Of a stretch of DNA of 15,986 nt, positions 1,577 to 15,986 are shown piece by piece; the stretch's first letter is position 1; every line of letters begins with the position of its first letter. Source of the stretch: Bryobacterales bacterium (lineage in GTDB: Bacteria; Acidobacteriota; Terriglobia; Bryobacterales; Bryobacteraceae). The notes under the pieces were generated by a model. That model saw nothing but the letters and a program-made list of their open reading frames with translations. It was not told the origin of the DNA and made no database searches. A program made the position numbers and the translations under genes. The stretch is from positions 220 to 16,205 of the forward strand of contig PKYZ01000130.1 in the NCBI GenBank assembly GCA_003132865.1, in the 5' to 3' direction.

Positions 1577-2652
1577 TTCATTATCGACTGGAGCAGATTT
1601 TCGTAAGCCGTGGCCACCGCATCCCAGCAGTAGTGCCGCTCGACGCGTTCGCGCGCGCGCCGGCGCAGCGCTTCACGGTCCGCTTCGCTCATCGCCAACG
1701 TCTGTTCGAGTGTCGCCGCCAGATCGTCCCCGAACGGAATGCCGGCATCGCCCGCGACCTCGGCATTCTCGGCGGTGTTGCGGTAGAGCACCAGCGCGCC
1801 GCGTCCCATGGCCTCGATCAATGCGGGATGCGTGCCGCCCACTTCCGTCGCGTGAATGTAAGCGAAGCAGTGCGCGTCCAGCTCATGGTATCCCTGCCCA
1901 TAAATCGCGCCAGGAATCACGATGCGTGGATCCCGCGTGTCGCGCACCTGCCGGATGTAATCGCGCGCGTAGGGCGCATCGCCGATCAGCGCCAGCTTCA
2001 TATCCGTGCGCACGCGTTCGAATGCCTGCCGCACCTCCAGCGCGTGGTTCTCCGGCTCCATGCGGCTCACATACAGGAAGTAGCGCCCCGGTTCCAGACC
2101 CAATTCCGCCAGCGCCGCCGTGGATTCCACCTTGCCGGTCTCCGCGCCATACGGAATGAACGTAGTGCGCTTGCCGTAGCGCTGCCTGTAATAGTCTTGG
2201 ATGGCGCGCGCATCGGTCACCACCTCGTTCGGAAGAAACGTGGCCAGCCATTCCGAAACCAGATACCAGGCTTTGGCCGCGCGGTTCCATTTCTTGCGCT
2301 TGCGCTCCAGGCCATCCACGTTCAGCGCCACAGGCATTCCGAACAGCCGCGGAACCGCCGTGAAGATGGCGTTGGCGCCATTGCAATAAAGCGCCACATC
2401 CACGCGGTGCGCGAGCAGGTGCAGCGTGGAGACGAACGTGTGCGCGATGGTATCGAAGTATTTGTGGCGAATAGTGGAGAGATACCGCAGCCGAACGCCA
2501 CCATAAGTAGAGTGTGGCTCTGCCCCACTGCGGCAGTACACCGTGACATCATGTCCGCGCGCAGCCAACCTTACGGAAAGCTCTTCGGCGAAAGTTTCGA
2601 ATCCGCCGTAGTTGGCGGGAATGCCGCGCGTACCCAGGATGGCAATGCGCAT
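1573..2652 (-). CDS. GT4-type glycosyltransferase with N-terminal DUF1972 domain (rhamnosyltransferase-like)
   Basis: A 359-residue protein. The opening MRIAILGTRGIPANYGGFET and the following FAEELSVRLAARGHDVTVYCR are the hallmark of the DUF1972 N-terminal Rossmann domain, which is found in glycosyltransferases of polysaccharide gene clusters and is often annotated as rhamnosyltransferase. The C-terminal GT-B half carries YFLYVSRMEPENH (191-203), ALIGDAPYA (221-229) and the donor-binding stretch GGTHPALIEAMGRG (272-285). No signal peptide or membrane segment is evident, so it probably acts at the cytoplasmic face, adding a sugar to a lipid-linked glycan. The donor and acceptor cannot be read from sequence. 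It starts 9 bases after the stop of the preceding GT2 gene, and its stop overlaps the alr start by four bases, which places it firmly in the operon. Confidence 0.88.
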   Translation of the reverse strand: MRIAILGTRGIPANYGGFETFAEELSVRLAARGHDVTVYCRSGAEPHSTYGGVRLRYLSTIRHKYFDTIAHTFVSTLHLLAHRVDVALYCNGANAIFTAVPRLFGMPVALNVDGLERKRKKWNRAAKAWYLVSEWLATFLPNEVVTDARAIQDYYRQRYGKRTTFIPYGAETGKVESTAALAELGLEPGRYFLYVSRMEPENHALEVRQAFERVRTDMKLALIGDAPYARDYIRQVRDTRDPRIVIPGAIYGQGYHELDAHCFAYIHATEVGGTHPALIEAMGRGALVLYRNTAENAEVAGDAGIPFGDDLAATLEQTLAMSEADREALRRRARERVERHYCWDAVATAYENLLQSIMK

Positions 2653-2661
2653 CGCGCGCGT

Positions 2662-3711
2662 TTACGTCTTGGCCGCTTGCGAGCGCGACACCAGCCGCGG
2701 CGCTTTTTTGGGAGCCTTCACGCTCACCGGGGAGTATTTGAACCAACTGGCGATGTAGGCATGATCCACGCGGCGCCTGCTCTGGATCTCCGCGCGCTTG
2801 GCCATCACCCGCCGCCAGTTCCGCGCCAGGAACCAGAACGCTTTCAGGGACGAATGCTCCCACATCAGGCAGCACATCACCACCGTGATGTCCCGGATCG
2901 TGATCGAGAACAGGTTTCGCCGGTACAGGTCCGGCGAGATGTTCTTGATCCGCATCAGGAACCGGTTCTTCACCGAGTGCATGTTGATCTCGGGCGGCAG
3001 CGCGCCGCGATTTCCCGGCAGCACCTTGCGCACGTGATAGCCGCGCGCGTAAGGCACGTAGATGCATTTCCAGCCCAGCAACTGCGCCCGCCAGGCCACA
3101 TCGGCGTCTTCCCGGTAAACGAAGAAATCGGAGTCGAAGAACTCTCCGTCGAGCGAGATGTCGTCAATCATCTCGCGGCGGTAAAGGGCCGCCGCGGCGG
3201 TGGCGCCGAACACAAACTCATATTGCAGATAGTGGCCGTTGTCGACTTCCTGGCTGCCGCGATCGAGATGCCGCAGCATGGGGTTGAAGTAGATGCCGGT
3301 GGAGTCCACCACCGGCTTGGCGGGTATCTCGAAGTGGGCGGACATAGTCAGCAGCTTGCCGCAGACCGTGCCAATGTTCGGATCGAAGTTGCCCGCTTCC
3401 ACCAGCGAGTGAACGAAATTCGGCAACAGCAGCACGTCCGGGTTCAGGGTCAGCACCCAGTGGCCGCTGGCCAGCCCGATGGCCTGGTTCTGCGCGGCGG
3501 CGAAGCCGGCGTTTTCCTCGTTGTAGATGATCTGGCAGCGGTCTTCGAACTGTTCCAGGATGTCGATGGTGCCATCGGTCGAGGCGTTGTCGATGACGAT
3601 GACTTCCTTAGTCGGGTACCGCTGTTCGAGCACCGATTCCAGGCATCTCTTGATAAAACGGCCGCTATTATAAGTTACGATCGTGACGGATACGAAGTCG
3701 TTATGGGACAT
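2662..3711 (-). CDS. Glycosyltransferase family 2 protein
   Basis: A 349-residue GT-A fold enzyme. The first strand is VSVTIVTYNSG (7-17). Nucleotide-sugar binding is marked by VIDNASTDG (39-47), with Asp41 as the likely uracil/ribose contact. LTLNPDVLL (88-96) supplies the DXD-equivalent metal site, and YREDADVAWRA (199-209) is the usual ED acceptor/base motif. Such proteins, related to rhamnosyltransferases of the WbbL/RfbF type, transfer a sugar to a growing lipid-linked chain on the cytoplasmic side; the specific sugar is not predictable. The C-terminal 100 residues are basic and partly hydrophobic (ITVVMCCLMWEHSSL), which suggests peripheral membrane contact. An AGG lies about 11 bases before the ATG. 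The preceding gene is separated by 76 bases with no convincing terminator, so co-transcription is likely. Confidence 0.9.
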   Translation of the reverse strand: MSHNDFVSVTIVTYNSGRFIKRCLESVLEQRYPTKEVIVIDNASTDGTIDILEQFEDRCQIIYNEENAGFAAAQNQAIGLASGHWVLTLNPDVLLLPNFVHSLVEAGNFDPNIGTVCGKLLTMSAHFEIPAKPVVDSTGIYFNPMLRHLDRGSQEVDNGHYLQYEFVFGATAAAALYRREMIDDISLDGEFFDSDFFVYREDADVAWRAQLLGWKCIYVPYARGYHVRKVLPGNRGALPPEINMHSVKNRFLMRIKNISPDLYRRNLFSITIRDITVVMCCLMWEHSSLKAFWFLARNWRRVMAKRAEIQSRRRVDHAYIASWFKYSPVSVKAPKKAPRLVSRSQAAKT

Positions 3712-3787
3712 GAACTCGAACCTGAATTAGCGCGAACCACTGGTACATCCGTTCACCCCAGACCGCGGGAAAAGACAAAAACACTGC

Positions 3788-4699
3788 TCACCCGGCTGGC
3801 CGTATGAATCTTCTGCCGGCCAGCGCCATCACTTTGCCGTATACTCTGATGGGCGTCAGGCTTCGAAATGCCGCCATTTCCAGAAGCATCCTGGGTATGG
3901 AGCCGAGGAAAACAGCCGCACAAACCATTCTAGCCGTACTGGAACGATAATGTTTGACTGCAAACCCTAGTAAACTACAATACCAATAAAGTTGCCGGTT
4001 CTCCAGCGAAATCTTTGCGAGGGAATGCCCGCCCGTATGTTTAGCTACAGCGTCTGGGGTGTAGCACATCCGGTAGCCTCTTTGTCTGGCTCTCCAGCAG
4101 AAATCCACATCTTCGAACCAAAGCGGGTAGAATCGCTCGTCAAATCCGTTCAGTTCCTGCCACACGTCGCGGCGGATCATCAGGAAGGCGCCCGCCGGCT
4201 GTTCCACGTCACTGGGCGTAGAGAAGTCAAAACCTAAGCAACGGTAGTGCCAATTGACCGGGTTACCCGGCCACATTCGATTCAGGAGCAAGGCTTCACA
4301 GATCAGGGCGGCCGGAGAGGGCAGGCTGCGCACGGCAAATCCGGTCTGCGGGCGTCCGGCGTCGTCCACCAGTTTGCCGCCCGAGCCTGCCACCCCCGGG
4401 CGGCGGCAGCACTCCACCAGCGCATCGAGCGAAGTCTCCAGTCGCGCGTCGGGATTCAATAACAACACGAATGGCGTGTCCAGCGCCCCTATGCCCTGGT
4501 TCACCGCGGCGGCAAATCCGCGGTTTTCCGGATTTGTGATAAGCCGTACACCGCGCCGAGTCACCTCCTGGCAGGTCCGGTCCGTTGAGGCGTTATCCAC
4601 CACTACGATCTCGGCGCCGGTGGGCTGCGCTCGATCCAGGCACGCCCCGATCTCCGCCTCCGATTCGTATGTCACAACCACAATACCAGCCTCACCCAT
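3788..4699 (-). CDS. Glycosyltransferase family 2 protein
   Basis: A 303-residue protein of the same GT2 type as its two neighbours. Motifs are IVVVTYESE (6-14), VVDNASTDR (33-41), NRGFAAAVNQGI (59-70), LLLNPDARL (79-87, DXD-equivalent), WFEDVDFCWRA (194-204, catalytic ED) and HTGGHS (221-226). The C-terminus has a short hydrophobic run near 256-272 and ends in a basic tail. It most likely adds a sugar during assembly of a surface polysaccharide; donor and acceptor are unknown. It begins 13 bases after the stop of the upstream GT2 gene, so both are probably on one transcript. Codon-level GC falls somewhat in its last third (about 3900-4120 is visibly more AT-rich than the surroundings), which may indicate a different origin or relaxed selection there. 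Confidence 0.9.
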   Translation of the reverse strand: MGEAGIVVVTYESEAEIGACLDRAQPTGAEIVVVDNASTDRTCQEVTRRGVRLITNPENRGFAAAVNQGIGALDTPFVLLLNPDARLETSLDALVECCRRPGVAGSGGKLVDDAGRPQTGFAVRSLPSPAALICEALLLNRMWPGNPVNWHYRCLGFDFSTPSDVEQPAGAFLMIRRDVWQELNGFDERFYPLWFEDVDFCWRARQRGYRMCYTPDAVAKHTGGHSLAKISLENRQLYWYCSLLGFAVKHYRSSTARMVCAAVFLGSIPRMLLEMAAFRSLTPIRVYGKVMALAGRRFIRPAG

Positions 4700-4712
4700 G
4701 TGTCACTATGCC

Positions 4713-5708
4713 TCACTTTGCCCCACCGGCGGTGAGTAGGAGATACAGCGTCCAGTACAAATCCCGCCCGGATTCCCGCTGCACGCGGCGAATTTCCTGT
4801 TCGCCTTCGGCCAGGATTCGGGCGAGCATAGGGCCGGTTCCAGCGCCATCGCGGAATTCGGCGAACCGGCGGAGGCCCTCCACCTTGCCGCGCAGCCACG
4901 CCCAACCCGTACCGTGACCGAGAGCCACTAGTCCCCACAATCCCTGCGCCACCGCGATGGGCCACGCGCAGCGCAGCAGCATGCGCCCCGGATAATGCTT
5001 GGCGATGAGGAACACCTGATTCCGCGCGGTGCGCCGCGTGGTTTCGGGATGCCAGCGTCCCAAAGTGGCGCTGCCTTCGTGCCAGGCGACGGCATCCGGC
5101 ACGTACCGCCCCGCGCACCCCGCCAGCGCGCAACGCAGTCCGAAGTCCACATCTTCCAGATACGATTCGAAGCGCTCATCCAGCAGCCCGACTTTGTCGA
5201 ACAATCCGGCGCGAAACAGCGCCGCCGTAAACGGCGCGGACCGGATCTCGCGGGCTTCCTGAAACAGCGGCCCGTCGGGGCAGGCGTGCCCCACACGCCA
5301 CGCAGTACCGCCGCGGCAAAGCGCGTCGAAGGTCGCATCGATACGGCTGCGATCGGCCGCCTGCAGGATTCGGCCGGTCGCAAACCAAGCTCCCAGTTCC
5401 AGCCCAACCAACAGTTTCTCCAGCCAGTCCGGCGCCAGTTCCACATCGTTGTTGACGATGGCCACCAGCGGCGTGCGGCTCTCGCGAATACCCCGGTTTA
5501 CGGCTCGCGCAAAGCCGCCATGCACGCCCATGCGAATGGCTCTGGCGCCCATACATTCGGCGAGGTCCGCCGATCCATCCTGGGAACCATCATCCACCAC
5601 CAGCACTTCCGCGGCCGCCTGCGTCTGCGCGCGGAGACCGCACAGCAAACGCTCCAGCAGCTCGCGCCGGTTCCACACCGGCACGATCGCGGTCACATCG
5701 CCGCTCAT
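4713..5708 (-). CDS. Glycosyltransferase family 2 protein
   Basis: A 331-residue GT2 enzyme. The open frame extends upstream to 5933, but that part overlaps the preceding gene and has no family similarity. The ATG at 5708 gives MSGDVTAIVPVWNR, the expected first strand, and overlaps the upstream stop as ATGA (5705-5708), so it is the chosen start. Motifs are VLVVDDGSQDGS (35-46), HGGFARAVNRGI (63-74), VNNDVEL (85-91, DXD-like metal site), YLEDVDFGLRC (183-193) and WHEGSAT (209-215). Relatives of this type transfer sugars in O-antigen or exopolysaccharide assembly. A moderately hydrophobic stretch (about 247-271) may help membrane association. Translational coupling to the polyprenyl-phosphate-mannose-synthase-like gene suggests the two act in the same pathway. 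Substrate specificity cannot be inferred. Confidence 0.9.
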   Translation of the reverse strand: MSGDVTAIVPVWNRRELLERLLCGLRAQTQAAAEVLVVDDGSQDGSADLAECMGARAIRMGVHGGFARAVNRGIRESRTPLVAIVNNDVELAPDWLEKLLVGLELGAWFATGRILQAADRSRIDATFDALCRGGTAWRVGHACPDGPLFQEAREIRSAPFTAALFRAGLFDKVGLLDERFESYLEDVDFGLRCALAGCAGRYVPDAVAWHEGSATLGRWHPETTRRTARNQVFLIAKHYPGRMLLRCAWPIAVAQGLWGLVALGHGTGWAWLRGKVEGLRRFAEFRDGAGTGPMLARILAEGEQEIRRVQRESGRDLYWTLYLLLTAGGAK

Positions 5709-6388
5709 GTCTTGCGCCGTGGGAGCCGCTTCTTGACCAGAAACAGCAGGTTGTGAAGGCCGTCCCTCCAGGGATTCAGTTTCTTCTCGCCGATCCGCGA
5801 AGTGTACATGATGGAGATTTCGCCGAAACGCACGCGCGGGTTCTTCAACGCTTCGATCTTGATCTCCTCCGAGAACGCCATGCTGTCCGATTCCAGTTGC
5901 ATGTCCTTGAGGATGGATCGCCGGAACACCCACATGCCGGATTGCGAGTCGCGCACCCAGCGGAAGTATAAGATGGACATGGCGAGCGAAAGCATCAGGT
6001 TGCCGAAATGGTGCTTGAGGCTCATGGCGTGCCGGTCGCGGACGGGAAAGCGCGAAGCATTCAGGAAGTCGACCTCGTGGTGCCGGAATGCCTCCAATAG
6101 ATAAGAGATAGCGTCCGCCGGGTAGCTGTGGTCGCCATCCAGCGTCACGATGAGATCGCCGGTAGCGTCGGCAAACCCGCGTTTGTAACTGCGGCCATAG
6201 CCGCGCACATCCTCGCGGATCACTTGCGCGCCCAGCGACGCCGCTACATGCGAAGTACGATCCGTGGAGGCGTTATCCACCACGATGACCTGGTCGACAA
6301 AATCCGGCATGCTGCGCAGCACGCGCTCGATGCCCTGCTCCTCATTCAGGCAAGGGATGATGACCGTGATCGTGTCGCCTTTATACAT
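5705..6388 (-). CDS. GT2 glycosyltransferase similar to dolichyl/polyprenyl-phosphate mannose synthase
   Basis: A GT2 enzyme of the DPM1-like group, 227 residues from this start. The motifs, numbered from the longer 240-residue frame, are TVIIPCLNEE (21-30), VIVVDNASTD (47-56), VRGYGRSYKRG (74-84), VTLDGDHSYP (94-103, the metal-binding DXD), DSQSGMWVFRR (160-170) and SEEIKIEA (186-193), with MYTSRIGEKKLNPWRDG near the end. DPM-like enzymes move a sugar from a nucleotide to a polyprenyl phosphate at the inner membrane. There is no C-terminal membrane domain here, as in the soluble DPM subclass. The ATG at 6388 places the first strand six residues from the start, as is normal. An in-frame ATG at 6427 would add 13 residues; neither has a clear ribosome binding site. 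It is the first gene of the leftward operon and overlaps the next gene by four bases. Confidence 0.85.
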   Translation of the reverse strand: MYKGDTITVIIPCLNEEQGIERVLRSMPDFVDQVIVVDNASTDRTSHVAASLGAQVIREDVRGYGRSYKRGFADATGDLIVTLDGDHSYPADAISYLLEAFRHHEVDFLNASRFPVRDRHAMSLKHHFGNLMLSLAMSILYFRWVRDSQSGMWVFRRSILKDMQLESDSMAFSEEIKIEALKNPRVRFGEISIMYTSRIGEKKLNPWRDGLHNLLFLVKKRLPRRKT

Positions 6389-6816
6389 AGGCACGTGCGC
6401 GAGAACCCTCAGGATAGCATCGCCCATCTAGCGCGCGAAGCGATAGCCGGCCGCCATTGGTGTGCCTTCGAGAGAGAGTTCACGTATCATGAGCAATTGT
6501 ATGCGGGCTTCGAGCTAAACAGCGCGTGGCTTCCCTGCTGGCGATTGCCGTCTTCGCCGCTCCTCTTCGCCGGCGAGATAGCTGCCGCCCGCGCGCGACC
6601 TCCGGCGGCGTTGTGCGGAGATCTGCCATCGAGCAGGCGCGGTATTATTGGCTTCTGCTACAAGGGAGTCATCCGGCGCGGCGCAGTTGGGTGTATAATA
6701 ACTTCAAACGGCCCGAACAGAGGCTGTTGGGTGTATACTAATTCTTAGCCAAAAAGGCAAAATCGAAATTCCGGTCTAAATTAGGGGTGGACCGCATTAA
6801 GGACAGGGGGCTTTAA
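6389..6816. other. 428-base intergenic region between divergent transcription units
   Basis: This region separates the leftward glycosyltransferase operon from the rightward secreted-protein gene, so it should carry both promoters. Its left half is GC-rich and holds no gene I can support. It includes a 10-base perfect palindrome (6567-6576, TCGCCGGCGA) and a weak leftward -10 candidate (TACAAT on the minus strand, 6501 to 6496) without a recognisable -35. The right 130 bases are much richer in A and T and contain the direct repeat annotated separately. A small GCC-AAAAA-GGC inverted repeat (6748-6758) lies in the presumed leader of the rightward gene. No tRNA or known riboswitch fold was recognised. 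Confidence 0.5.
6686..6741 (+). promoter_or_regulatory. Two -10-like boxes within a 16-base direct repeat, 40 bases apart
   Basis: GTTGGGTGTATAATAA at 6686-6701 recurs as GTTGGGTGTATACTAA at 6726-6741, 15 of 16 bases identical and exactly 40 bases apart. The first contains a perfect -10 hexamer, TATAAT (6694-6699); the second contains TATACT (6734-6739). No good -35 hexamer stands 16-18 bases upstream of either, so a promoter reading rests on the -10 boxes, the AT-rich setting and the position 78-123 bases upstream of the secreted-protein ATG. The alternative is a repeated regulator-binding site. Confidence 0.4.
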
Positions 6817-7252: not shown

Positions 7253-8509
7253 TTGGCCGCAGGCGCCACGTTCTTCCTCCACACCCCGGGTACAAGTCCG
7301 ACCCTCACGCAAGGCTGGGGTGAAGCAACCGCTTCCGACGGCGTGCAGATCTATGCCGTCTTTAGGACCACGCCGGGCGGGCAAGGCACCGCTCCCGCCG
7401 TGGCAATCGGGAACCACGTACTGGTGCCCTTCGACAACACCAATGGCAACGTCACCGCAATGGCCGTGGCGAACCCCACGGCTTCTAGCGAAACCGTTTC
7501 CGTGTCTTTTCAGAGCGCGGGCGGAGCGATTTCGCAGGCATCCCTGACCATCCCGGCCAACGGACACCAGGCCTTCACATTTCCGACGCAGTTCGCGGGG
7601 ACCGCCAACGGCCAGGGCCTCGCCGAATTCTACGCTGCAAACGGCGGCTTCTCCTTGATCGGACTCCTATTCGATCCGGTCGGCTTTTCCACGGCTCCGG
7701 CCTATCCCGAGTCCGGGCCTGTCGTTATCGGCGTCCCCGACCCCCTAAAGTGCGTTGTAGGCCCGCTTCTCCCGGGGTGCCCGGAACCTCCCCTTTTGGT
7801 CACAACGTTCGCCGCCATCATCGACTCGAGCCCGGTCCAAATCACGATCACACCCGGTACCAGCAACGGAACCTATAACGCCGCAGTCAGCGGGACCGTC
7901 AACAGTGCGGCAGTCAGCGGGTCTTTCGTGGGAGGAACCGTCACGCTCACGAGCCCAGTCACCTTTGCCTTCACTTCAGTCGGCCCCCAGTCTACATTCA
8001 GCAGCGGTTCGCTGAACTTTGTCTTGGCGGGAACAGCCTTTGACGCGTCTATCGGCGAGGGTCAGGGAAACGTTACCGGTTCGATAACGTTGAATAACGT
8101 CGGGAGCGGCGCAATCAGTGGCGCCTACGCCGAATTGATCCCGTTGCCGGCACCGGCCCTGACGTTCTCCGTGCAATCGCAGTCCCTCGGCACTACGGAC
8201 AACCTGTTGATGGCCGTGACCAACACCGGCGCAGTTGCGGCCACCAATGTGACGATTACATCGATTAGCGGGATCACAGCGTACGGCGCGACGCTCGTCT
8301 ACGTGCCGGGACTGCTGAATCCGCCGTTCGCGGTGCCAGGCGCTGCGAATCTGGCGCCCGGAGCTACCTCCGATTTCAACTTGTTCTTCCAGGCAACCTC
8401 CGGAAGCGCTGGAACGCCGTTCAGCTTCATCATCACGGCTGAGGCGGATAACGTGCCGGCGTTCACGACGACGATCAACATCACGACGGGCGAGGTACTC
8501 GTTCACTAA
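7253..8509 (+). CDS. Intact C-terminal reading frame of the frameshifted secreted protein
   Basis: A 418-codon open frame that can formally start at a TTG (7253). No ribosome binding site or signal peptide belongs to that start, so it is best regarded as the downstream part of the gene that starts at 6817. Content in order: the second half of the GGGWQTT-type domain (AAGATFFLHTPG, GWGEATASDGVQIYAVFR, VLVPFDNTNGNVTAMAVANP); a Cys-containing linker (KCVVGPLLPGCPEPP); a Gly/Ser/Thr-rich beta segment with GTYNAAVSGTVNSAAVSGSF-like repetition; and a final module of alternating strands beginning ALTFSVQSQSLGTTDN, similar in style to CARDB or Ig-like domains. No sorting signal such as PEP-CTERM is visible at the C-terminus, which ends in TGEVLVH. 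Absence of stops over 1.2 kb shows that decay, if real, is recent. Confidence 0.55.
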   Translation: MAAGATFFLHTPGTSPTLTQGWGEATASDGVQIYAVFRTTPGGQGTAPAVAIGNHVLVPFDNTNGNVTAMAVANPTASSETVSVSFQSAGGAISQASLTIPANGHQAFTFPTQFAGTANGQGLAEFYAANGGFSLIGLLFDPVGFSTAPAYPESGPVVIGVPDPLKCVVGPLLPGCPEPPLLVTTFAAIIDSSPVQITITPGTSNGTYNAAVSGTVNSAAVSGSFVGGTVTLTSPVTFAFTSVGPQSTFSSGSLNFVLAGTAFDASIGEGQGNVTGSITLNNVGSGAISGAYAELIPLPAPALTFSVQSQSLGTTDNLLMAVTNTGAVAATNVTITSISGITAYGATLVYVPGLLNPPFAVPGAANLAPGATSDFNLFFQATSGSAGTPFSFIITAEADNVPAFTTTINITTGEVLVH

Positions 8510-8635
8510 CTCAGCGGCATTCTCGAAGCCGCGTGGCGCGCGCCGCGATTCGCCGCCGTTGCGATCCCACCGTGGGCCGCTGTCCGGCCCCTGCTGCATG
8601 GGATGGGTGCGCGGCTTGTTATCATGGTGAGTGAA

Positions 8636-9223
8636 ATGAAATGGGCTCTGTCGCTACTCTGTTGCCTTAGCAGTTGCCTTAACGGGGCTGCCGCCGCGGA
8701 ACTCACCGGTGTGCGGACCGTGTATCTGATGCCCATGGGCCACAGCCTCGACCAGTTCATCGCCAACCGCCTCACGCGCATGCATGTGCTCCAGGTGGTC
8801 ACCGATCCGGCCAAGGCCGACACCATCTTCACCGACCAGGTGGGCGCGTCGCTGGAGGACCGGTTAAAAGACTTGTATCCGCCGCCGCCCTCGCCGGAAG
8901 CCAAAGAGGCGGCCAAAGAAAAAGAGGCCGCCAAAGAGGCCGCCGCCAAAGAAAAGGCAGAAAAGCCCGAAAAGCAAAGCGCACCTCCGGCCCAGGGTTC
9001 ACCCTCGCTTCTGGGAGATACCGTCAACAAGGCCGACAAAGCCGGCATCATGGGTGTCTCGGGCCGTGGCCGCGGAACCATCTTCCTGGTGGACGTGAAG
9101 TCCCGCCAAGTGCTGTGGTCGGCCTTCGAAAAGCCCAAGAACTCCAGTCCGCACGAACTGGACCATACTGCCGAGCGCGTCGTGAAGTTGCTCAAAGAGG
9201 ACCTCTCGGCGAAGGCGAAGTAG
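8636..9223 (+). CDS. Small exported protein with a Lys/Glu/Ala-rich central linker, function unknown
   Basis: From the ATG at 8636 the product is 195 residues: MKWALSLLCCLSSCLNGAAA is a signal peptide and GGTGAG-like bases (GGTGAG at 8626-8631) serve as ribosome binding site. ATGs at 8603 and 8624 would add 11 or 4 residues ahead of the signal peptide and are less likely. The mature protein has an alpha/beta N-domain (GVRTVYLMPMGHSLDQFIAN, then VVTDPAKADTIFTDQVGASL), a low-complexity linker of Pro and then KEAAKEK-type repeats (about 84-120), and a C-domain with GRGRGTIFLVDVKSRQVLWS followed by a helix (ELDHTAERVVKLLKEDL). The split order resembles small envelope proteins that report or bind at the cell surface, but I do not recognise a named family. 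Its 3' end overlaps the convergent glycosyltransferase gene by 32 bases. Confidence 0.75.
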   Translation: MKWALSLLCCLSSCLNGAAAAELTGVRTVYLMPMGHSLDQFIANRLTRMHVLQVVTDPAKADTIFTDQVGASLEDRLKDLYPPPPSPEAKEAAKEKEAAKEAAAKEKAEKPEKQSAPPAQGSPSLLGDTVNKADKAGIMGVSGRGRGTIFLVDVKSRQVLWSAFEKPKNSSPHELDHTAERVVKLLKEDLSAKAK

Positions 9224-11591
9224 GGTTCTTTTCTCGCACGGCGTCCCAATAACTCTCCACCAGCCGCGCTGTGATCGCGGCCATGTCCCAGTTCGCCACG
9301 ACCTCGGCGCGCGCGCGCGCGGCCATCTCCGCGGCCAGCGGCGGGTCGTCCAAAACCTGCAGCACCTTCTCCGCGAACGGTTCCGGCTGGTCCGCGAGCA
9401 GACAGAACTCCCCGTCCTGGCGCGCCAGTCCCTCGGCGCCAATCCGCGTCGAGACTACCGGAATGCCGCTGGCGAAAGCTTCGAGCAGCTTGACGCGCAC
9501 GCCCGAACCGCTCCGCACGGGGCACACGAACACCGCGTAGCGGGCCAGCGGCTCGCGGATGTCTTCCACGAACCCGCGCATTTCGACGGCCGGCGCGCTA
9601 TCCGGGTAAGGATGCCGCTGCGGCGCATCCGATCCGACCACCACCAGCCGCGCCTCCGGCCGCCGCGCCTGCTTCTGACGAGCCGTGATGCGCGGCAGCA
9701 CCTCATTCACGAACCAATCGAGCGCCACAACGTTGGGTTCGTGCTGGAAGCTTCCCACAAACAGCATGGTGAACGTTTCCCGCCCGCCGGGCGAGAAATC
9801 ATAGCGCGCGGTGTCGATGCCCGCCCGCAGACCCGCTTGCAGGCGGCCGCGAAGCGCGCCTTTGCGTGGCAGAAAACCGGCCAGGTATTCCCCGTTTTCC
9901 CGCGTGCACACCTGCACCCGGTCGCAGCGCGGCAGCATGCCTAACTCGTAGCGCAGCGCCCGGAGATACTCGTAGCGCGCCTTGATCCTGGCGAGCGTTC
10001 CAGGCATGTGCGCGAGGCCGCGCGCGATGGATTGGAAATAGATATCGTGCTCGAACAGGATGGTGGGAATGTGGCGATACGCGCGCGCATATTGTCCGAG
10101 CGGCGTGTATTCGAGCTGCACTACGTCGATCCGCTTCAGATAGATCTGGCGGTGAATGAGCCAGTCCAGATCTTCGTTGGCGAACTCGGAGACCGCATGC
10201 GGCCGCATGGAACCCAGGCTTGCAGGCATGGGCGGCCGCACCAGGAACTCGGCCGACGCGCAGAAACTCCGCAGCTCCTCCTGCGCGGAAGCCTGCGATG
10301 GCTCGTCCAACATCGCCACCACGTGCACCGTCGCGAGCTTGGCCAGCTCCCGCAGCGTTTGATACATGAAGACACCGCCACCGTGCACGGGCGGGCAAAT
10401 GGGATACGGCGAAACGAACAGCACGCGAAGTTTATTCTGAGCCGCGACCGTAAGGGAGCGGTCCCCCCCAAACCGGTCCCGGAAGTATCCCCCCAACGGT
10501 CTCCGGAACGCTTCCGTATCGTCCACCACGGCCAGGCCGCGTGCCCGCCAGCGCGAAGCTATCGCGCTGGGAAGCTGCCGGAACGCGCGCCACCACCCGT
10601 CCAGATTAGCCCGGCCCGGCGCGTCGCCGGATGCCAGGCTGAGCAGCACTCCGCCATAACTGAAGAAGAAGTGCGCCGCCAGGCGACGCCAATCATGGAT
10701 ATTCTTCCAGCAGAACAGCAGGTAATTCTTCTTGAGCACCGCCTGTATTTGTGCTTCGCTGAAGCGCTTGCCGATAGTGCCGCGGTGCTCGTGATACACG
10801 ATGCTGCGCGGCTGATACAGCACCTTCCAGCCGCGCTTCCAAGCCATATAACCCAGGTCGGTGTCTTCCAGGTAGAAGGGCGCCAGCAGTATGTCGAACC
10901 CGCCCAGCTCCAGAAACTTTCGCCGGTCGAAGGCGCAGGATCCGCCGCCGCCGTAGAAGCACGGAAACAAATCGGCTAGGCCAGAGTCGACGCGATGCCG
11001 CACTTTCAGGCCGCCATCCTGCCACCAGCCCTGCGTCAGTCCTGTCTCTTCGCGCAGCTTAGCCGGATCGCGGAAGAAAATCTGGCAAGAGACGGCGAAC
11101 ACGCGCTCGTCGCGGAAACCTTCGACGAGCGGCGGCAGGAAATCCGGCGACACCTGCATATCGCTGTTCAGCAGCACGACGATGTCGTTCCTGGCGGCGC
11201 GGAATCCGGCATTCGAGCCGCCGCCAAAACCGAGATTCCGCTCGAGCGCCAACACCTTCACGTCCGGAAACGCCCTCCGCACGAACTCGGCGCTGCCATC
11301 CGCCGAGCCATTGTCGACCACGATGATCTCGTTTTCCGGATTGTGGGACAGGGCGGCGATTACCGACGGGAGGTAGCGCTCGAGGAGGTCGCGCCCGTTC
11401 CAGTTGGGGATCACGACGGTGGCGGATGCGGGGAGCGGGGCGGCCTGGGAGGCCGCCGCAGGCTGCGAGCCTGCCCCACAGAGGCGCCACAGCAAGTCGG
11501 TAAGGGCGAGCGACAACACCGCGGCCAACCACATCAGCGGGGAGAGGACCAGGAGGAAGACTGTCCGCACGAAGCGCGTGAGCGGGATCAT
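9192..11591 (-). CDS. Membrane-anchored bifunctional glycosyltransferase (GT2-GT4 fusion)
   Basis: A 799-residue two-enzyme protein. Residues 8-36 form one or two hydrophobic membrane helices (VFLLVLSPLMWLAAVLSLAL). A linker at 38-56 leads to a GT2 domain (57 to about 330): VVIPNWNGRDLL, VVDNGSADGS (91-100), LLNSDMQVSP (140-149, metal site) and YLEDTDLGYMAWKRG (240-254). After a second linker (about 372-386) comes a GT4 domain (388-783): LRVLFVSPYPICPPVHGGG, FVGSFQHEPNVVALDW (611-626) and the donor-binding SGSGVRVKLLEAFASGIPVV (694-713). Such fusions make two successive linkages of a polysaccharide repeat. The ATG overlaps the methyltransferase stop by four bases (11588-11591). The last residues (PTSPSPRGPL) overlap the convergent plus-strand gene. 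Both linkers coincide with repeat-like DNA (see the two repeat entries). The sugars transferred are unknown. Confidence 0.9.
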   Translation of the reverse strand: MIPLTRFVRTVFLLVLSPLMWLAAVLSLALTDLLWRLCGAGSQPAAASQAAPLPASATVVIPNWNGRDLLERYLPSVIAALSHNPENEIIVVDNGSADGSAEFVRRAFPDVKVLALERNLGFGGGSNAGFRAARNDIVVLLNSDMQVSPDFLPPLVEGFRDERVFAVSCQIFFRDPAKLREETGLTQGWWQDGGLKVRHRVDSGLADLFPCFYGGGGSCAFDRRKFLELGGFDILLAPFYLEDTDLGYMAWKRGWKVLYQPRSIVYHEHRGTIGKRFSEAQIQAVLKKNYLLFCWKNIHDWRRLAAHFFFSYGGVLLSLASGDAPGRANLDGWWRAFRQLPSAIASRWRARGLAVVDDTEAFRRPLGGYFRDRFGGDRSLTVAAQNKLRVLFVSPYPICPPVHGGGVFMYQTLRELAKLATVHVVAMLDEPSQASAQEELRSFCASAEFLVRPPMPASLGSMRPHAVSEFANEDLDWLIHRQIYLKRIDVVQLEYTPLGQYARAYRHIPTILFEHDIYFQSIARGLAHMPGTLARIKARYEYLRALRYELGMLPRCDRVQVCTRENGEYLAGFLPRKGALRGRLQAGLRAGIDTARYDFSPGGRETFTMLFVGSFQHEPNVVALDWFVNEVLPRITARQKQARRPEARLVVVGSDAPQRHPYPDSAPAVEMRGFVEDIREPLARYAVFVCPVRSGSGVRVKLLEAFASGIPVVSTRIGAEGLARQDGEFCLLADQPEPFAEKVLQVLDDPPLAAEMAARARAEVVANWDMAAITARLVESYWDAVREKNPTSPSPRGPL
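10446..10463. repeat. Repeat-like inverted sequence within the GT2-GT4 linker
   Basis: GACCG (10446-10450) and CGGTC (10459-10463) flank TAAGGGAG, preceded by GAGCCGC (10439-10445) and followed by a run of seven C (10463-10469). From memory, GCCGCGACCGTAAGGGAGCGGTC-like sequence is a recurrent interspersed element in some Acidobacteria and Planctomycetes genomes; that is recollection, not a search. On the coding strand it supplies GGDRSLTVAAQ at residues 375-385, exactly between the GT2 and GT4 domains. Confidence 0.45.
11439..11474. repeat. Twin-hairpin (REP-like) element inside the N-terminal linker of the GT fusion
   Basis: Two perfect hairpins stand back to back with no spacer: GGCGGCCT-GGG-AGGCCGCC (11439-11457, 8-bp stem, 3-base loop) and GCAGGCT-GCG-AGCCTGC (11458-11474, 7-bp stem, 3-base loop), followed by CCCCACAG. 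This is the shape of REP/BIME-type palindromic elements. It lies in frame and encodes CGAGSQPAAASQAAP between the membrane helix and the GT2 domain. The structure is seen directly; membership of a dispersed family is inferred. Confidence 0.6.
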
Positions 11592-12817
11592 TGCAGATCG
11601 GCGTCAGGTCCCAACCCGACGCGTCGGCCCAGCCGCACCCAGCGCGAAGCCTCCAGCAGGGCCAGCTTGCGGCGAAGTTGCTCCACCTCGGCGTTGAGCC
11701 CTTGCGCCCAGCGCGTGCGCTCTTCCACGGTCTTCTCCGCCTTGTGCAGATACTCGACGCACTGCGCCAGCTCCTGCAGCTTGGCGTCGAGTTGCGCATT
11801 CAACTGCTGCGCCCATTCCGACTTCGCGCGGTTTTCCTGGTCCAGCTCTGCGATTCTGGCCTGGCCGGCGGCCTGCGCGGCAGCCAGTTCTTCCTGAAGC
11901 TCCTGAATGCGCGCGCCGCTGGCTGCCAATTCCCGGTCCAGCCGCTCGGCCCAGCGGTTGCTCTCTTCCATCTCCGTCGTCAGTTTGCGATGCTCCCGGC
12001 CCAAATCCGCCAGATCCCGCTGGGCTTCTTCCAGCCAACCGTCCTTCCGCCGCAGTTCGCCTTCGAGTAGCGCGATGTGCGTCTCTCTCTCGCGCAGCAC
12101 GTTCGCCGCGCTGGGAACATAGACGAACGTGGGATTGCCGGTCTGCGGCCGGTGCGCGCAAACCGCCACGAAGAAGTGCGATTCCGCGGGCGGCGTTTCG
12201 CCGCCATCCACGCGGACCTCGGTGGTCCCGCCAGCCTCTGCCGCCTGCATGGGGCGGAATGCCACGCCCTCCACGTGGTTTTCCAGGAACAGCGAAATAT
12301 GCGGGAAAATGGCCGATAATTCGGCCCGGAACTCATCGAACTCGAACTCGTGCGCGTGGAACGGATTGGCGCCCACTTGGCTCCGCGATTCCGCGTAGTA
12401 GAGCTTGTTGGGTGTGGAGACGATGAACTGTCCGGTGGGCGCCAGCACCCGCCGCACTTCCAGCAGGAAGTCCCGCCAGCCGGGCAGGTGCTCGATCACC
12501 TCGAAAGCCACCACCAGATCGAAGGCCGCGTCCGGATGCGGCAATGCGGTACAGGAAGCCCGTTCGAATTCGAGATACGGCAGCCGGTAATGCGCGCGCG
12601 CGAAGGTCACAGCCTCCGCCGCGATATCCGCGCCAACCACCGAGAGCGCCGATTTCGCCAGCTCCGCCGCGCCGTAGCCCGCGCCGCAGCCGGCATCCAA
12701 CACCCGCTTGCCGCGCGCCAGGCGCGCCGCGAACGCGTAGCGCGCCATGTGCTCGTTCAGGAGGTCCGCATCCACCCGACCCGGAATCACGCGCTCGCCG
12801 GTAAATTCGACCTGCAT
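11588..12817 (-). CDS. SAM-dependent methyltransferase with long C-terminal coiled coil
   Basis: From the ATG at 12817 the protein has 409 residues and begins MQVEFTGERVIPG, the usual N-terminus of this class. The longer frame to 12868 would intrude into the ABC gene and is rejected. Residues 39-49 (VLDAGCGAGYG) are the SAM-binding motif I and VVGAD (60-64) motif II. FDLVVAFEVIEHLPGW (99-114) and the post-motif FIVSTPNK (131-138) complete a class I, Methyltransf_11-type domain. Residues about 240-390 are a continuous charged heptad-like coiled coil with three WAxxL segments, ending in ASRWVRLGRRVGLGP, a basic amphipathic tail that may touch the membrane. It sits 4 bases after the Wzt-like gene and overlaps the fusion glycosyltransferase by four bases. 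By analogy with WbdD, it may methylate the end of the glycan and set its length; this is inference, and no kinase domain is present. Confidence 0.88.
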   Translation of the reverse strand: MQVEFTGERVIPGRVDADLLNEHMARYAFAARLARGKRVLDAGCGAGYGAAELAKSALSVVGADIAAEAVTFARAHYRLPYLEFERASCTALPHPDAAFDLVVAFEVIEHLPGWRDFLLEVRRVLAPTGQFIVSTPNKLYYAESRSQVGANPFHAHEFEFDEFRAELSAIFPHISLFLENHVEGVAFRPMQAAEAGGTTEVRVDGGETPPAESHFFVAVCAHRPQTGNPTFVYVPSAANVLRERETHIALLEGELRRKDGWLEEAQRDLADLGREHRKLTTEMEESNRWAERLDRELAASGARIQELQEELAAAQAAGQARIAELDQENRAKSEWAQQLNAQLDAKLQELAQCVEYLHKAEKTVEERTRWAQGLNAEVEQLRRKLALLEASRWVRLGRRVGLGPDADLQ

Positions 12818-12821
12818 GGCT

Positions 12822-14132
12822 TCAACCAACGCGGTGCTCCGCGATCTCGGTGGGCGCGAGCCGCGCATTCACTTCCACACGGCACGGCAGGCGCAGAAAT
12901 CCGTAGATCTCGCCCGGAGAGTGGCCCATCTGCAGCGCGATGGCATTGTCGATCCAGTCGCACATCTTGTAGCCCAACAGGGTGCCGTCGGCGATGGCCG
13001 GCGAAAAAGAAAAGGAGGCGGGATACAACTCCGGCATCTCGAGATGAAAGTCCACCGTATAGACATCGTCCGGCATCATGGCGGGCAGATCGTAACCTTC
13101 GCGCGCGGTGTTGGTGCCCGAGAAATCGATGCCGAGCTGGTTGCGCATCATGAATCCCACGATGGGCTGCGCGATCTCGCCGCGCGCGCGCACGCTGATG
13201 CGCACGGTGATGCGCTGCGACGGCTCCAGAAGGTGCACGGGGTCGCCTTGCGCATCCAGCACGGCGATTCCCAACACTTCCGCGCGGCCGTCGCCATAGC
13301 GGTGGTCGATGTTTGGAATGCGCTCGACGACTTCCGGAGCGCGCACGCGCGGGCCTGTGCGCGCACGCTCCGGCGAGCCTTTCAGCATCAGGTACGCCGA
13401 GTCCTTTTCCACCATGGCCGCCAGATACTTAGCCACCACCCGGTCCGTTTCGCCGATCTCCCGAAGGCGGCCTTGCTCCAGCCACAGGGCGCGGTCGCCG
13501 ATGGCATTTACATCGGCGAGGGCGTGGGAAACGAACAGAATCGTGACGCCCCGCGCGCGCAGTTCGTGCACCTTGCGCATGCAGCGCTGCCGGAAATAGA
13601 TGTCGCCCACCGCCAGGGCTTCGTCCACCAGCAGGATCTCCGGGTCCACGTTGATGGCTACCGCAAACGCGAGCCGGACGACCATACCGCTCGAATAGGT
13701 CTTCACCGGCTGGTTGATGAACTCGCCGATTTCGGCAAAGTCCTCGATATCCTTGTAGCGCTGGTCGATCTGCCTGGTGCTCAGGCCCAGGATGGATCCG
13801 TTCAAATAGACGTTATCGTGGCCGGTGAATTCGGGATTGAATCCGGCGCCCAGTTCCAGCAGAGCCGATACCCGCCCGTTCACCGTGAGCGAACCGCGGC
13901 TGGGTTGCAAAATGCCGGCCACCATTTGCAGCAGCGTGCTTTTGCCGGAGCCGTTTTCGCCGATGATGCAGAAGGTCTCGCCGCGGCGGATTTCGAAGCT
14001 GACGTCGTGCAGCGCCCAGAAATCCTGGTGGCACTTCAGCCGGTTGAACGAGAGCAACTCTTTGAGCCGGTCGCCCGGCGAGTCATAGATCGAGTAGCTC
14101 TTCGAGACACTCTGAAATTCGACGGCGTTCAC
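12822..14132 (-). CDS. wzt: Wzt-like polysaccharide ABC transporter ATP-binding protein with C-terminal sugar-recognition domain
   Basis: About 436 residues from the GTG at 14132 (MNAVEFQSVSKSYSIYDSPG), chosen because homologues start there and an AGG lies about nine bases upstream. A TTG at 14162 would add ten residues. The ATPase has Walker A GENGSGKST (58-66), a Wzt/TagH-type LLELGAGFNPEFTGHDNVY, signature YSSGM (146-150), Walker B ILLVDE (166-171) and the switch histidine in LFVSH (about 203). Residues about 270-420 match the Wzt_C beta-sandwich that, in O9a/O12-type systems, binds the chain terminus before export. The ATPase energises export of lipid-linked polysaccharide through a Wzm channel across the inner membrane. 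Wzm would normally be encoded next door, yet none is in the window. It is the first gene of a three-gene operon. Confidence 0.93.
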   Translation of the reverse strand: MNAVEFQSVSKSYSIYDSPGDRLKELLSFNRLKCHQDFWALHDVSFEIRRGETFCIIGENGSGKSTLLQMVAGILQPSRGSLTVNGRVSALLELGAGFNPEFTGHDNVYLNGSILGLSTRQIDQRYKDIEDFAEIGEFINQPVKTYSSGMVVRLAFAVAINVDPEILLVDEALAVGDIYFRQRCMRKVHELRARGVTILFVSHALADVNAIGDRALWLEQGRLREIGETDRVVAKYLAAMVEKDSAYLMLKGSPERARTGPRVRAPEVVERIPNIDHRYGDGRAEVLGIAVLDAQGDPVHLLEPSQRITVRISVRARGEIAQPIVGFMMRNQLGIDFSGTNTAREGYDLPAMMPDDVYTVDFHLEMPELYPASFSFSPAIADGTLLGYKMCDWIDNAIALQMGHSPGEIYGFLRLPCRVEVNARLAPTEIAEHRVG

Positions 14133-14586: not shown

Positions 14587-15399
14587 TCAGCCCGCGTGCG
14601 CCGCCAGGTATTCGCGCAGCGTGGGCGCCAGGTTTGCCGCCCACTGCAGGTTCTGCTGCGCGTCCAAGTCGGAGATCACATAGGCCAGGTAATCGTGGCT
14701 CTCGAATCCCACCACCTGAAAACGGTCGACGCCCGCTTGATGGATGCCGCCGCTCAACGACTCACCGGATTGCCTGCGAGTCAGGACCAGCGAGACGGTT
14801 TTGCCGCCGCCGGCCATGATGAGATGCGTGTACTGGCGTCCGCCGGCGCTGCAGTGATGACCCTGGATGATGCGGAAATCGCCCGGGAGTTTCGCCTGGA
14901 CGAGCGGGACCAGATCCGCGAACGCGGGACCGAGATCGGCGGCCATCTGGCGGGCGGCCACGGGCTGCTTGGAATACTTGCGGAACACGGCGCAATGCAG
15001 ATGATCCCGCAACCCCACATTCAGCATCGCCGCGAGGCGCCCGGAAGTCTTCCGCAGGATGGCTTCTTCCGGGTCGGTCTTCACGCGCAAGAAGCTCACC
15101 AGGGCGACGCAAACGATCACCGCGGCCGCTGCTGCGACGGCCCACAGTCCGGTGCGCGGGCGCGAAACTTCGCCTCGCACGGCGCGCCGGACTTTGGCTT
15201 CCAGGCCGTCAGGCACGGGTGTGGCGCGCACCGCAGCCTGCAATTGCGCGCGGATGCGGGCGCGCGTTTCGAGTTCAGCCGCGCACAGCGGGCAACTCTC
15301 CAGATGCCGCTGAACTTCCCGGCTGGTTTCTTCCGGCAGTTCGCGGCTGAGATAGGAATCCAGATGCCCGCGCACCTTCCCGCACGCGGCGGTATTCAT
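14587..15399 (-). CDS. Membrane anti-sigma factor with zinc-finger (zf-HC2/ZAS-like) domain
   Basis: A 270-residue protein. The N-terminal cytoplasmic domain carries the zinc-binding pattern Cys6 ... HLESCPLC (His32, Cys36, Cys39) of ZAS anti-sigma factors, which hold ECF sigma factors inactive. A single membrane helix follows (GLWAVAAAAAVIVCVALVSF, 84-103). The extracytoplasmic part of about 165 residues has two His/Cys clusters, DHLHC (132-136) and GHHC (180-183), a GRQYTHLIMAGGGKTVSLVL strand region and a helical end. This domain is presumably the signal sensor; I do not recognise a named family for it. The ATG overlaps the sigma factor stop by four bases (15396-15399), so the pair is translationally coupled, as expected for cognate partners. 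Which signal is sensed is unknown. Confidence 0.88.
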   Translation of the reverse strand: MNTAACGKVRGHLDSYLSRELPEETSREVQRHLESCPLCAAELETRARIRAQLQAAVRATPVPDGLEAKVRRAVRGEVSRPRTGLWAVAAAAAVIVCVALVSFLRVKTDPEEAILRKTSGRLAAMLNVGLRDHLHCAVFRKYSKQPVAARQMAADLGPAFADLVPLVQAKLPGDFRIIQGHHCSAGGRQYTHLIMAGGGKTVSLVLTRRQSGESLSGGIHQAGVDRFQVVGFESHDYLAYVISDLDAQQNLQWAANLAPTLREYLAAHAG

Positions 15400-15959
15400 G
15401 CGCCGCCCTCCTTGCCGGCATCCTTGCTGGCGGGGCCGATCCCATAAGACCGCGCCAGTTCGCTCAACTGCTCGCGCAACAGCTTCCGGCCGCGGCTCAG
15501 GCGGCTCATCACGGTTCCGATAGGCACGTTCAGCAGTCCGGCGATTTCCTTGTAGGAGAACTCCTCGACATCCGCCAGCAGAACGGCGGCGCGGTAATCG
15601 GCCGGCAAACGGCGAAGCGCGCGCAGGATTTCCTCCTGTGCGATGCGCTCCGGAACGGGGGCCGTACAGACCGCGGTTTGTTCCAGAATGTCTTCGCTAT
15701 CTTTCACCCGGCGCAAATTGAACCAATTGCGGCGGTGGTGATGAATGGTGTTGACGAGGATCTTGAACAGCCAGGCCCGGCAATTGGTGCCCGGCTCGAA
15801 GCGGGCGAACGACTTCCAGGCCTGTAAATAGGTTTCCTGCACCACGTCCTCGGCTTTCGTGCTGTCACCGAGCAGCCTGGCCGCCGTGCGGTACAACTCG
15901 TGCAAGTGCGGCAAGGCTACTGTTTCGAATTCGTCGGTTCGCGGGTGTTTCGAAAACAA
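15396..15959 (-). CDS. ECF (sigma-70 family, RpoE-like) RNA polymerase sigma factor
   Basis: About 187 residues. Sigma region 2 spans about 16-80: LPHLHELYRTAARLLGDS, then AEDVVQETYLQAWKSFARF and NCRAWLFKILVNTIHHHRRN, the core-binding and -10 recognition helices. Region 4 (about 110-165) has LRALRRLPADYRAAVLLADV, then FSYKEIAGLLNVPIGTVMSR, the -35 recognition helix-turn-helix. No sigma 1.1 or region 3 is present, as normal for ECF factors. It would direct RNA polymerase to a stress regulon when released by the adjacent anti-sigma factor. The start is uncertain: the TTG at 15959 has an AGGAG only two bases ahead, which is too close, and the frame stays open to the window edge at 15986. The gene could therefore start further upstream. 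No promoter of this regulon was identified. Confidence 0.88.
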   Translation of the reverse strand: MFSKHPRTDEFETVALPHLHELYRTAARLLGDSTKAEDVVQETYLQAWKSFARFEPGTNCRAWLFKILVNTIHHHRRNWFNLRRVKDSEDILEQTAVCTAPVPERIAQEEILRALRRLPADYRAAVLLADVEEFSYKEIAGLLNVPIGTVMSRLSRGRKLLREQLSELARSYGIGPASKDAGKEGGA

Positions 15960-15986
15960 TACTCCTATAGTGGCATAAGGCGGCGG

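Follow-up and report, generated by a model that had tools for sequence, protein, structure and literature searches.

Three genes in a Bryobacteraceae genome form an operon whose products probably assemble a sugar chain for the cell surface, add a methyl cap to it and carry out its export. The operon lies in a 15,986-nucleotide stretch of DNA (hereafter the window) and encodes Wzt, the ATPase subunit of an O-antigen-type ABC exporter, a methyltransferase (MT) that ends in a long coiled coil, and a membrane-anchored fusion of two glycosyltransferase (GT) domains. The three genes are conserved together across relatives, in which the coil varies in length in quantised steps and, in naturally fused proteins, ends next to a membrane segment and GT domains.

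Results

A conserved operon of Wzt, methyltransferase and glycosyltransferase fusion

The initial annotation, made from the letters of the window, described three tightly coupled genes between 9192 and 14132, and the reading frames bear this out. They form a minus-strand operon in which 4 nt separate the Wzt stop from the MT start codon, and the MT stop and fusion start share an ATGA overlap (Table 1). A failure of related loci to keep the three genes together, which that annotation had named as grounds for abandoning its reading, is not what we observed: in related loci picked by MT (the best 80 of 255 relatives in genome contigs), the order Wzt-MT-fusion is kept on one strand in 78 of the 80, an arrangement that is more than chance. 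The exceptions are L062, which lacks the fusion because its contig stops 5 bases past the match, and L032, which has no Wzt in its 2.9 kb of upstream sequence.

Table 1 Features of the operon, in window positions
Feature	Positions	Strand	Details and basis
Wzt, ATPase subunit of O-antigen-type ABC exporter	12822..14132	-	436 aa; GTG start at 14132, stop at 12822; Pfam
Wzt_C recognition domain, residues 277-414	12891..13304	-	PF14524, 88.4 bits, cut-off 30.4
MT with C-terminal coiled coil	11588..12817	-	409 aa; ATG at 12817, stop at 11588; Pfam, alignment, AlphaFold2
Class I SAM-dependent methyltransferase domain, ~residues 1-236, no kinase	12110..12817	-	Pfam, AlphaFold2 model
Single 163-residue helix, proposed ruler	11621..12109	-	AlphaFold2 model, helix 238-400 (model numbering)
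Conserved C-terminal motif S-R-W-V-R-L-G...G-L-G-P closing the coil	11588..11650	-	Alignment
GT2-GT4 glycosyltransferase fusion, polymerase-like	9192..11591	-	799 aa; Pfam, hydropathy
N-terminal membrane segment of fusion, ~residues 7-40	11472..11573	-	Kyte-Doolittle up to 2.38
GT2 domain, ~residues 58-280	10752..11420	-	PF00535 Glycos_transf_2, 94.1 bits
GT4 domain, ~residues 388-785	9237..10430	-	PF13692 Glyco_trans_1_4, 91.3 bits

Wzt combines an ABC_tran domain (79.6 bits, cut-off 25, Pfam) with the C-terminal recognition domain that had been proposed for it, which is a genuine Wzt_C. Its closest solved chain is 8dku_A (E 4.2e-74), which we take to be Aquifex aeolicus Wzt, and it aligns over its full length with E. 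coli O8 Wzt (34.7% identity over 424 alignment columns). The third gene was said to encode two GT domains with a membrane anchor of their own, and it does: Pfam recognises both GT2 and GT4 domains, and Kyte-Doolittle hydropathy reaches 2.38 within residues 1-40. A comparable hydrophobic segment (above 1.6) is found in 118 of the 120 homologues listed. The GT4 part also matches TIGR03087 at 130.8 bits, under the cut-off of 316.65.

Genomic neighbourhood

Five further GT genes lie downstream of the operon, at window positions 1573-6427 on the minus strand, four of GT2 type and one GT4 gene with a Cps2T match below cut-off. The order of this set after the trio is kept in part of the family: among the 51 loci having at least 9 kb of downstream sequence, matches to two of these GTs follow the trio in 20, and the set went undetected in 31. 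The additional GTs lend some support to an alternative in which the GT2-GT4 fusion adds an adaptor or primer segment, leaving synthesis of the polymer to the downstream GTs or to enzymes elsewhere. We consider this unlikely: besides those 31 loci, the fusion is kept in 78 of the 79 loci having Wzt (the exception lies at a contig edge) and occurs in all four outgroup operons read (see below), as the polymerase does in O8.

Upstream of Wzt, a ParB-like gene is found in 30 of the 80 loci, preceded by a ParA-like gene in 25, and an MnmG-like gene (identified by reading) stands further upstream in 21, counts that are to be read with the upstream sequence of many loci being too short for such calls. 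One ParA and one ParB were confirmed by Pfam. These neighbours therefore indicate that, in part of the family, the trio occupies a core-genome location rather than a variable O-antigen island. A chromosome-segregation neighbourhood (e.g., L049 and L047) is unusual for a surface-glycan operon.

In the window itself, genes read as sigma-factor-like and anti-sigma-like lie upstream of Wzt (14587-15986, minus strand) and are also present in the closest relative, L001. Two plus-strand genes lie on the other side of the operon. The convergent gene at 8603-9223 encodes a short protein, hydrophobic at its N-terminus, that has no Pfam or NCBIfam match and has homologues in 34 of the 80 loci; the gene at 7253-8509 encodes a 418-aa protein with no Pfam match, matched among the 80 loci only in L001 at the threshold applied.

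A methyltransferase domain without a kinase

The ~236 residues ahead of the MT helix correspond to a methyltransferase (MTase) domain of normal size, matching Methyltransf_11 at 78.3 bits (Pfam), although parts of it (181-214 and 227-246) were modelled at low confidence by AlphaFold2. No kinase family appears in the Pfam matches of Wzt, MT and the fusion, or among the best 25 NCBIfam matches of each. The initial annotation had presented the operon as a WbdD-like system set apart by its missing kinase; on the evidence of Pfam, NCBIfam and domain size the absence stands, and as a mark of novelty it is ruled out, since the E. coli O8 terminator WbdD is likewise a simple methyltransferase with no kinase according to PMC3482155. 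Because MT has no kinase, a methyl cap is expected and not a methyl-phosphate cap.

We found no special sequence kinship that would mark the MTase domain as specifically WbdD-like. It aligns with the E. coli O8 terminator at 26% identity over 108 residues (E 1.8e-5 in a set of 17 proteins), and its fold match is generic: WbdD is named in none of the titles of the best 50 of 1740 PDB fold matches, all of which are other methyltransferases. Generic methyltransferases of sugars and small molecules are among the closest solved relatives, as would suit an enzyme that terminates nothing and instead decorates internal repeat-unit sugars or a precursor (nucleotide or lipid), with Wzt_C reading some other end group. 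That alternative also draws on the outgroup genomes described below, where the MT gene lies away from the exporter and, in two of the loci inspected, has a GT9 heptosyltransferase-family gene nearby. Set against it are the placement of MT between wzt and the fusion, its coil, the natural fused proteins and the parallel with the O8 gene order. We judge this alternative to be quite improbable; the trio is probably a capping system.

A coiled coil that changes length in quantised steps

AlphaFold2 models the remainder of MT as one uninterrupted helix. A coil of about 150 residues had been proposed; it is indeed long, and the predicted helix of 163 residues slightly exceeds that estimate. Helix pLDDT by block is 70-91 over residues 251-390 and lower toward both ends. 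Three tryptophans (W290, W336 and W371) are invariant across 23 aligned relatives. The motif that closes the coil has counterparts of a similar kind (S-R-W-V-K-L-G type) at the ends of coils of 387-604 residues; in outgroup MT proteins, the coil end is a different, related sequence. Averaged over the family, the hydrophobic period is 3.52 residues, the value proper to a heptad coiled coil, and is reached by 0 of 1000 shuffles. Tested as a single sequence by Fourier analysis, the coil in the window showed no significant period (178 of 1000 shuffles).

We inferred coil-length changes on a tree of the MTase domain from 197 sequences (P0060, P0091 and sequences of 330 residues or fewer excluded), a main set with coil lengths of 120 to 216 in which the window coil measures 152. 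The tree carries 60 changes, 48% of them multiples of 7. Sizes of 0, 3 or 4 modulo 7 account for ~55 of the 60 (~92%) against 43% expected, with these classes picked after the sizes had been seen. Coiled coils tolerate length steps of 7, 11 and 18. As a control, MTase-domain lengths fall in all seven modulo-7 classes (by sequence, not by change). In a simpler anchor count, no length was obtained for 9 of the 80 loci, of which 8 lacked a recognised anchor and the ninth was the incomplete L062. Across the family, this is the behaviour of a heptad coiled coil with quantised length changes.

Coil lengths extend well past the main set on both sides. The five longest relatives measured have coils of 387, 423, 426, 547 and 604 residues; the longest-coil proteins are P0242, P0244, P0247, P0248 and P0250. 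The long coils seem to consist of tandem repeats, and in P0242 and P0244 tryptophan spacings of 28 and 50 alternate. Five outgroup coils, which carry a related end motif, measure 39 (L132), 102, 106, 102 and 212 residues. A helix rises 0.15 nm per residue, and the range of 39 to 604 residues among relatives corresponds to ~6 to 90 nm. In a group of 11 genomes whose MT and permease WzmA (described below) are divergent, the MT gene lies apart from wzm-wzt, and the coil is ~40 residues in all five MT loci inspected, one of which was measured (39); a long ruler is therefore not universal. In this short-coil group, a GT9 heptosyltransferase-family gene lies close to MT in L133 (2797-3903) and L135 (2986-4065).

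The coil likely acts as a ruler for chain length. Several of these observations would also fit a cap enzyme, its product read by Wzt_C, whose coil does nothing beyond oligomerising and tethering it to the polymerase, so that coil length drifts by duplication with little effect on the chain: coil length often differs among relatives (the 60 changes in 197 sequences), it falls to ~40 residues in one group, and any coiled coil, ruler or not, should change length in such steps. However, the coil spans 120 to 604 residues between an MTase domain and an end motif that are both retained, the natural fused proteins set the coil between the cap enzyme and the GTs, and in characterised systems coil length sets the glycan size distribution, as stated in PMC11231755. 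Capping without a measuring role is in our estimate rather unlikely, and we prefer the ruler reading.

Natural fusions place the coil end at the membrane

A search for longer proteins gave 98 matches, 37 of them with the domain order MTase-GT2-GT4. The P0241, P0243 and P0246 fusions were dropped as evidence, and MT-GT2-GT4 proteins alone were counted, because stretches of those three look frameshifted. We analysed 12 of the 37. All 12 have a hydrophobic segment between the coil and GT2, with peaks of 1.63 to 2.74, located 95 to 216 residues past the coil start, and in P0249 the coil-end motif leads straight into this segment. The model of P0249 (mean pLDDT 69.9, coil blocks mostly ~30-49) was used for domain order only. 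In the natural fused proteins the coil therefore ends at the membrane next to the polymerase-like part, with the MTase at the opposite tip.

Among the matches listed for 199 Acidobacteriota genomes, we found one fused MT-GT frame, a 1165-aa open frame on contig 149 of G319 (~4118-6292) that matches both the MT and the GT2 part of a fused relative at 36%. In G006, the MT and GT genes share a reading frame but are separated by a stop.

A probable partner permease encoded elsewhere in the genome

The window contains no Wzm, a point on which the initial annotation was silent. In 12 genomes with trio loci, the contig that carries the trio Wzt (short in several cases, the smallest ~21 kb) had no PF01061 match apart from two, at ~147 kb in G005 and at ~159 kb in G004. 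Regions around many ABC2_membrane matches, examined in 5 of these 12 genomes, yielded four Wzm families (WzmA, WzmB, WzmC and WzmD), with WzmA present in all five. In four of the five, no ATPase was matched in the region fetched around WzmA; in L126, the nearest lies ~3.6 kb off, beside another permease. The closest solved relative of WzmA is the permease chain of 6m96, with 8dku and 7k2t also matched, and the best solved matches of WzmA and Wzt are the permease and ATPase chains of the same entries.

The other families were weighed as partners. WzmD was rejected, as it lies beside its own ATPase in all three loci seen. Counting against WzmB is another ATPase (NBD 51% identical) ~3 kb away in one of three loci, with none in the other two, and against WzmC the N-terminal extension that it carries; both are possible partners of Wzt. 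The WzmC extension (L097, L118 and L127) resembles a recognition domain, here carried by the permease, and within the regions fetched for these three loci no trio-like ATPase was matched near WzmC.

Of these families, WzmA was profiled, together with the trio genes, across 120 genomes drawn evenly from the order. WzmA is present in 110 (at least 42% identity; two fragments, G112 and G121), as is MT (best E-value 8.5e-79 or better). The two occur together in 106 genomes and are both missing from 6 (Fisher p 1.1e-5, ignoring kinship and missing contigs); four genomes have WzmA only (G043, G100, G102 and G121) and four MT only (G016, G058, G087 and G116). Five of the six genomes without either also lack a strong Wzt match.

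Wzt adjoins MT (gap below 600 bases) in 90 of the 120 genomes and adjoins WzmA in 17 others (16 gaps of at most 203 bases and one of 1571), and in none of the 120 does it adjoin both. Four of the 17 WzmA-adjacent genomes were read, and each has an operon wzmA-wzt-fusion with MT elsewhere. This swap of adjacency is the best evidence that WzmA, Wzt, the fusion and MT are one system with its genes rearranged. WzmA is strongly indicated as the partner Wzm of the trio Wzt, encoded elsewhere in the genome. In the window, and near the trio in the 12 genomes above, no cognate Wzm is encoded with Wzt, unlike in the usual definition of such an exporter by its member genes.

Discussion

A model for capping and length control

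We favour, with moderate confidence, a scheme in which the trio forms the core of an ABC-transporter-dependent glycan pathway, responsible for export, capping and length control. The GT2-GT4 protein, anchored in the membrane, would extend a lipid-linked chain at the inner membrane face. MT would form the cytoplasmic tip of a coiled-coil stalk, and the opposite end of the stalk would lie at the membrane beside this polymerase. When the growing chain reaches MT, its terminal sugar would be O-methylated and growth would stop, the stalk length thus setting the minimum, and hence the modal, chain length. The capped end would then be recognised by Wzt_C, and the chain exported by Wzt together with the Wzm encoded elsewhere. 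The polymerase activity of the fusion, terminal O-methylation, cap recognition and length control are what we infer from the architecture described above.

A bolder reading extends this scheme to the whole order, as a conserved terminator that serves as an adjustable tape measure. The cap enzyme and the membrane end would be kept, the rod varied in coiled-coil steps, including tandem modules, over ~6-90 nm to give species-specific glycan lengths, and the permease encoded apart. We advance this tentatively, as somewhat short of an even chance. For the interpretation as a whole, the main reservations are the group with ~40-residue coils, how often coil length changes between relatives, and the identity of the glycan.

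The ruler model for capped O-polysaccharides rests on a few enterobacterial systems, judging from PMC11231755 and PMC3482155. One family with coils of 39-604 residues and with fused proteins that fix the topology therefore makes the relation of coil length to chain length testable across species. A Wzm/Wzt exporter whose genes have come apart is also one that locus-based annotation would miss, and the conservation of the system suggests a conserved surface glycan in soil Bryobacteraceae.

Comparison with known systems

The trio appears to work like the E. coli O8 system, an analogy drawn from its parts. In the O8 locus of strain IAI1, wzm, wzt, a 425-aa methyltransferase and a 1213-aa glycosyltransferase follow in that order; the 425-aa protein (annotated as a class I SAM-dependent methyltransferase) is presumably WbdD. 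The order wzt-terminator-polymerase matches that of the trio, if the fusion is the polymerase. As in O8 and in K. pneumoniae O5, whose chains end in methyl only (PMC11231755), a kinase-free MT directly follows wzt, ahead of a large glycosyltransferase. The O8 likeness extends to Wzt, alike over its full length, and to terminator size (425 aa in O8, 409 aa in the window). The window-type system differs from both O8 and O5 in its detached wzm and in a long uninterrupted coil closed by a short end motif, and from O8 in its membrane-anchored GT2-GT4 protein, where O8 has the 1213-aa WbdA, and in MTases that are weakly alike.

The E. coli O9a WbdD, as portrayed in PMC3482155, has an N-terminal MTase and a C-terminal coiled coil and is coupled to a bifunctional polymerase. 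MT shares this layout and a bifunctional polymerase-like partner, whereas O9a WbdD has a kinase between MTase and coil that MT lacks. WbdD also has a C-terminal membrane or recruitment region, where the separate MT shows only its short basic aromatic end motif and the natural fusions continue into a hydrophobic segment. The analogy with WbdD offered in the initial annotation thus carries over for Wzt_C, the gene order, the coil and the position of the coil end at the GT part, and is weakest for the MTase sequence, whose match to O8 is short and weak.

Several module arrangements with coiled-coil rulers have been described (PMC11231755). The natural fused relatives of the trio, single MTase-coil-GT-GT proteins, resemble ORF6 of K. 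pneumoniae O7. The trio-family terminator differs from ORF6 in having no kinase and no extra CBM that we could see, in pairing GT2 with GT4 in place of two GT2 domains, and in a membrane segment between coil and GT2. A literature search on WbgA of Myxococcus gave no match. For the exporter, Wzt and WzmA are both closest, among solved structures, to entries 8dku, 7k2t and 6m96, which we take to be A. aeolicus Wzm-Wzt; unlike that pair, wzm and wzt lie apart in most genomes examined here. Relative to the systems compared, three things are new: a permease gene set apart from the trio, a GT2-GT4 partner anchored in the membrane and, most of all, coils that form a natural length series.
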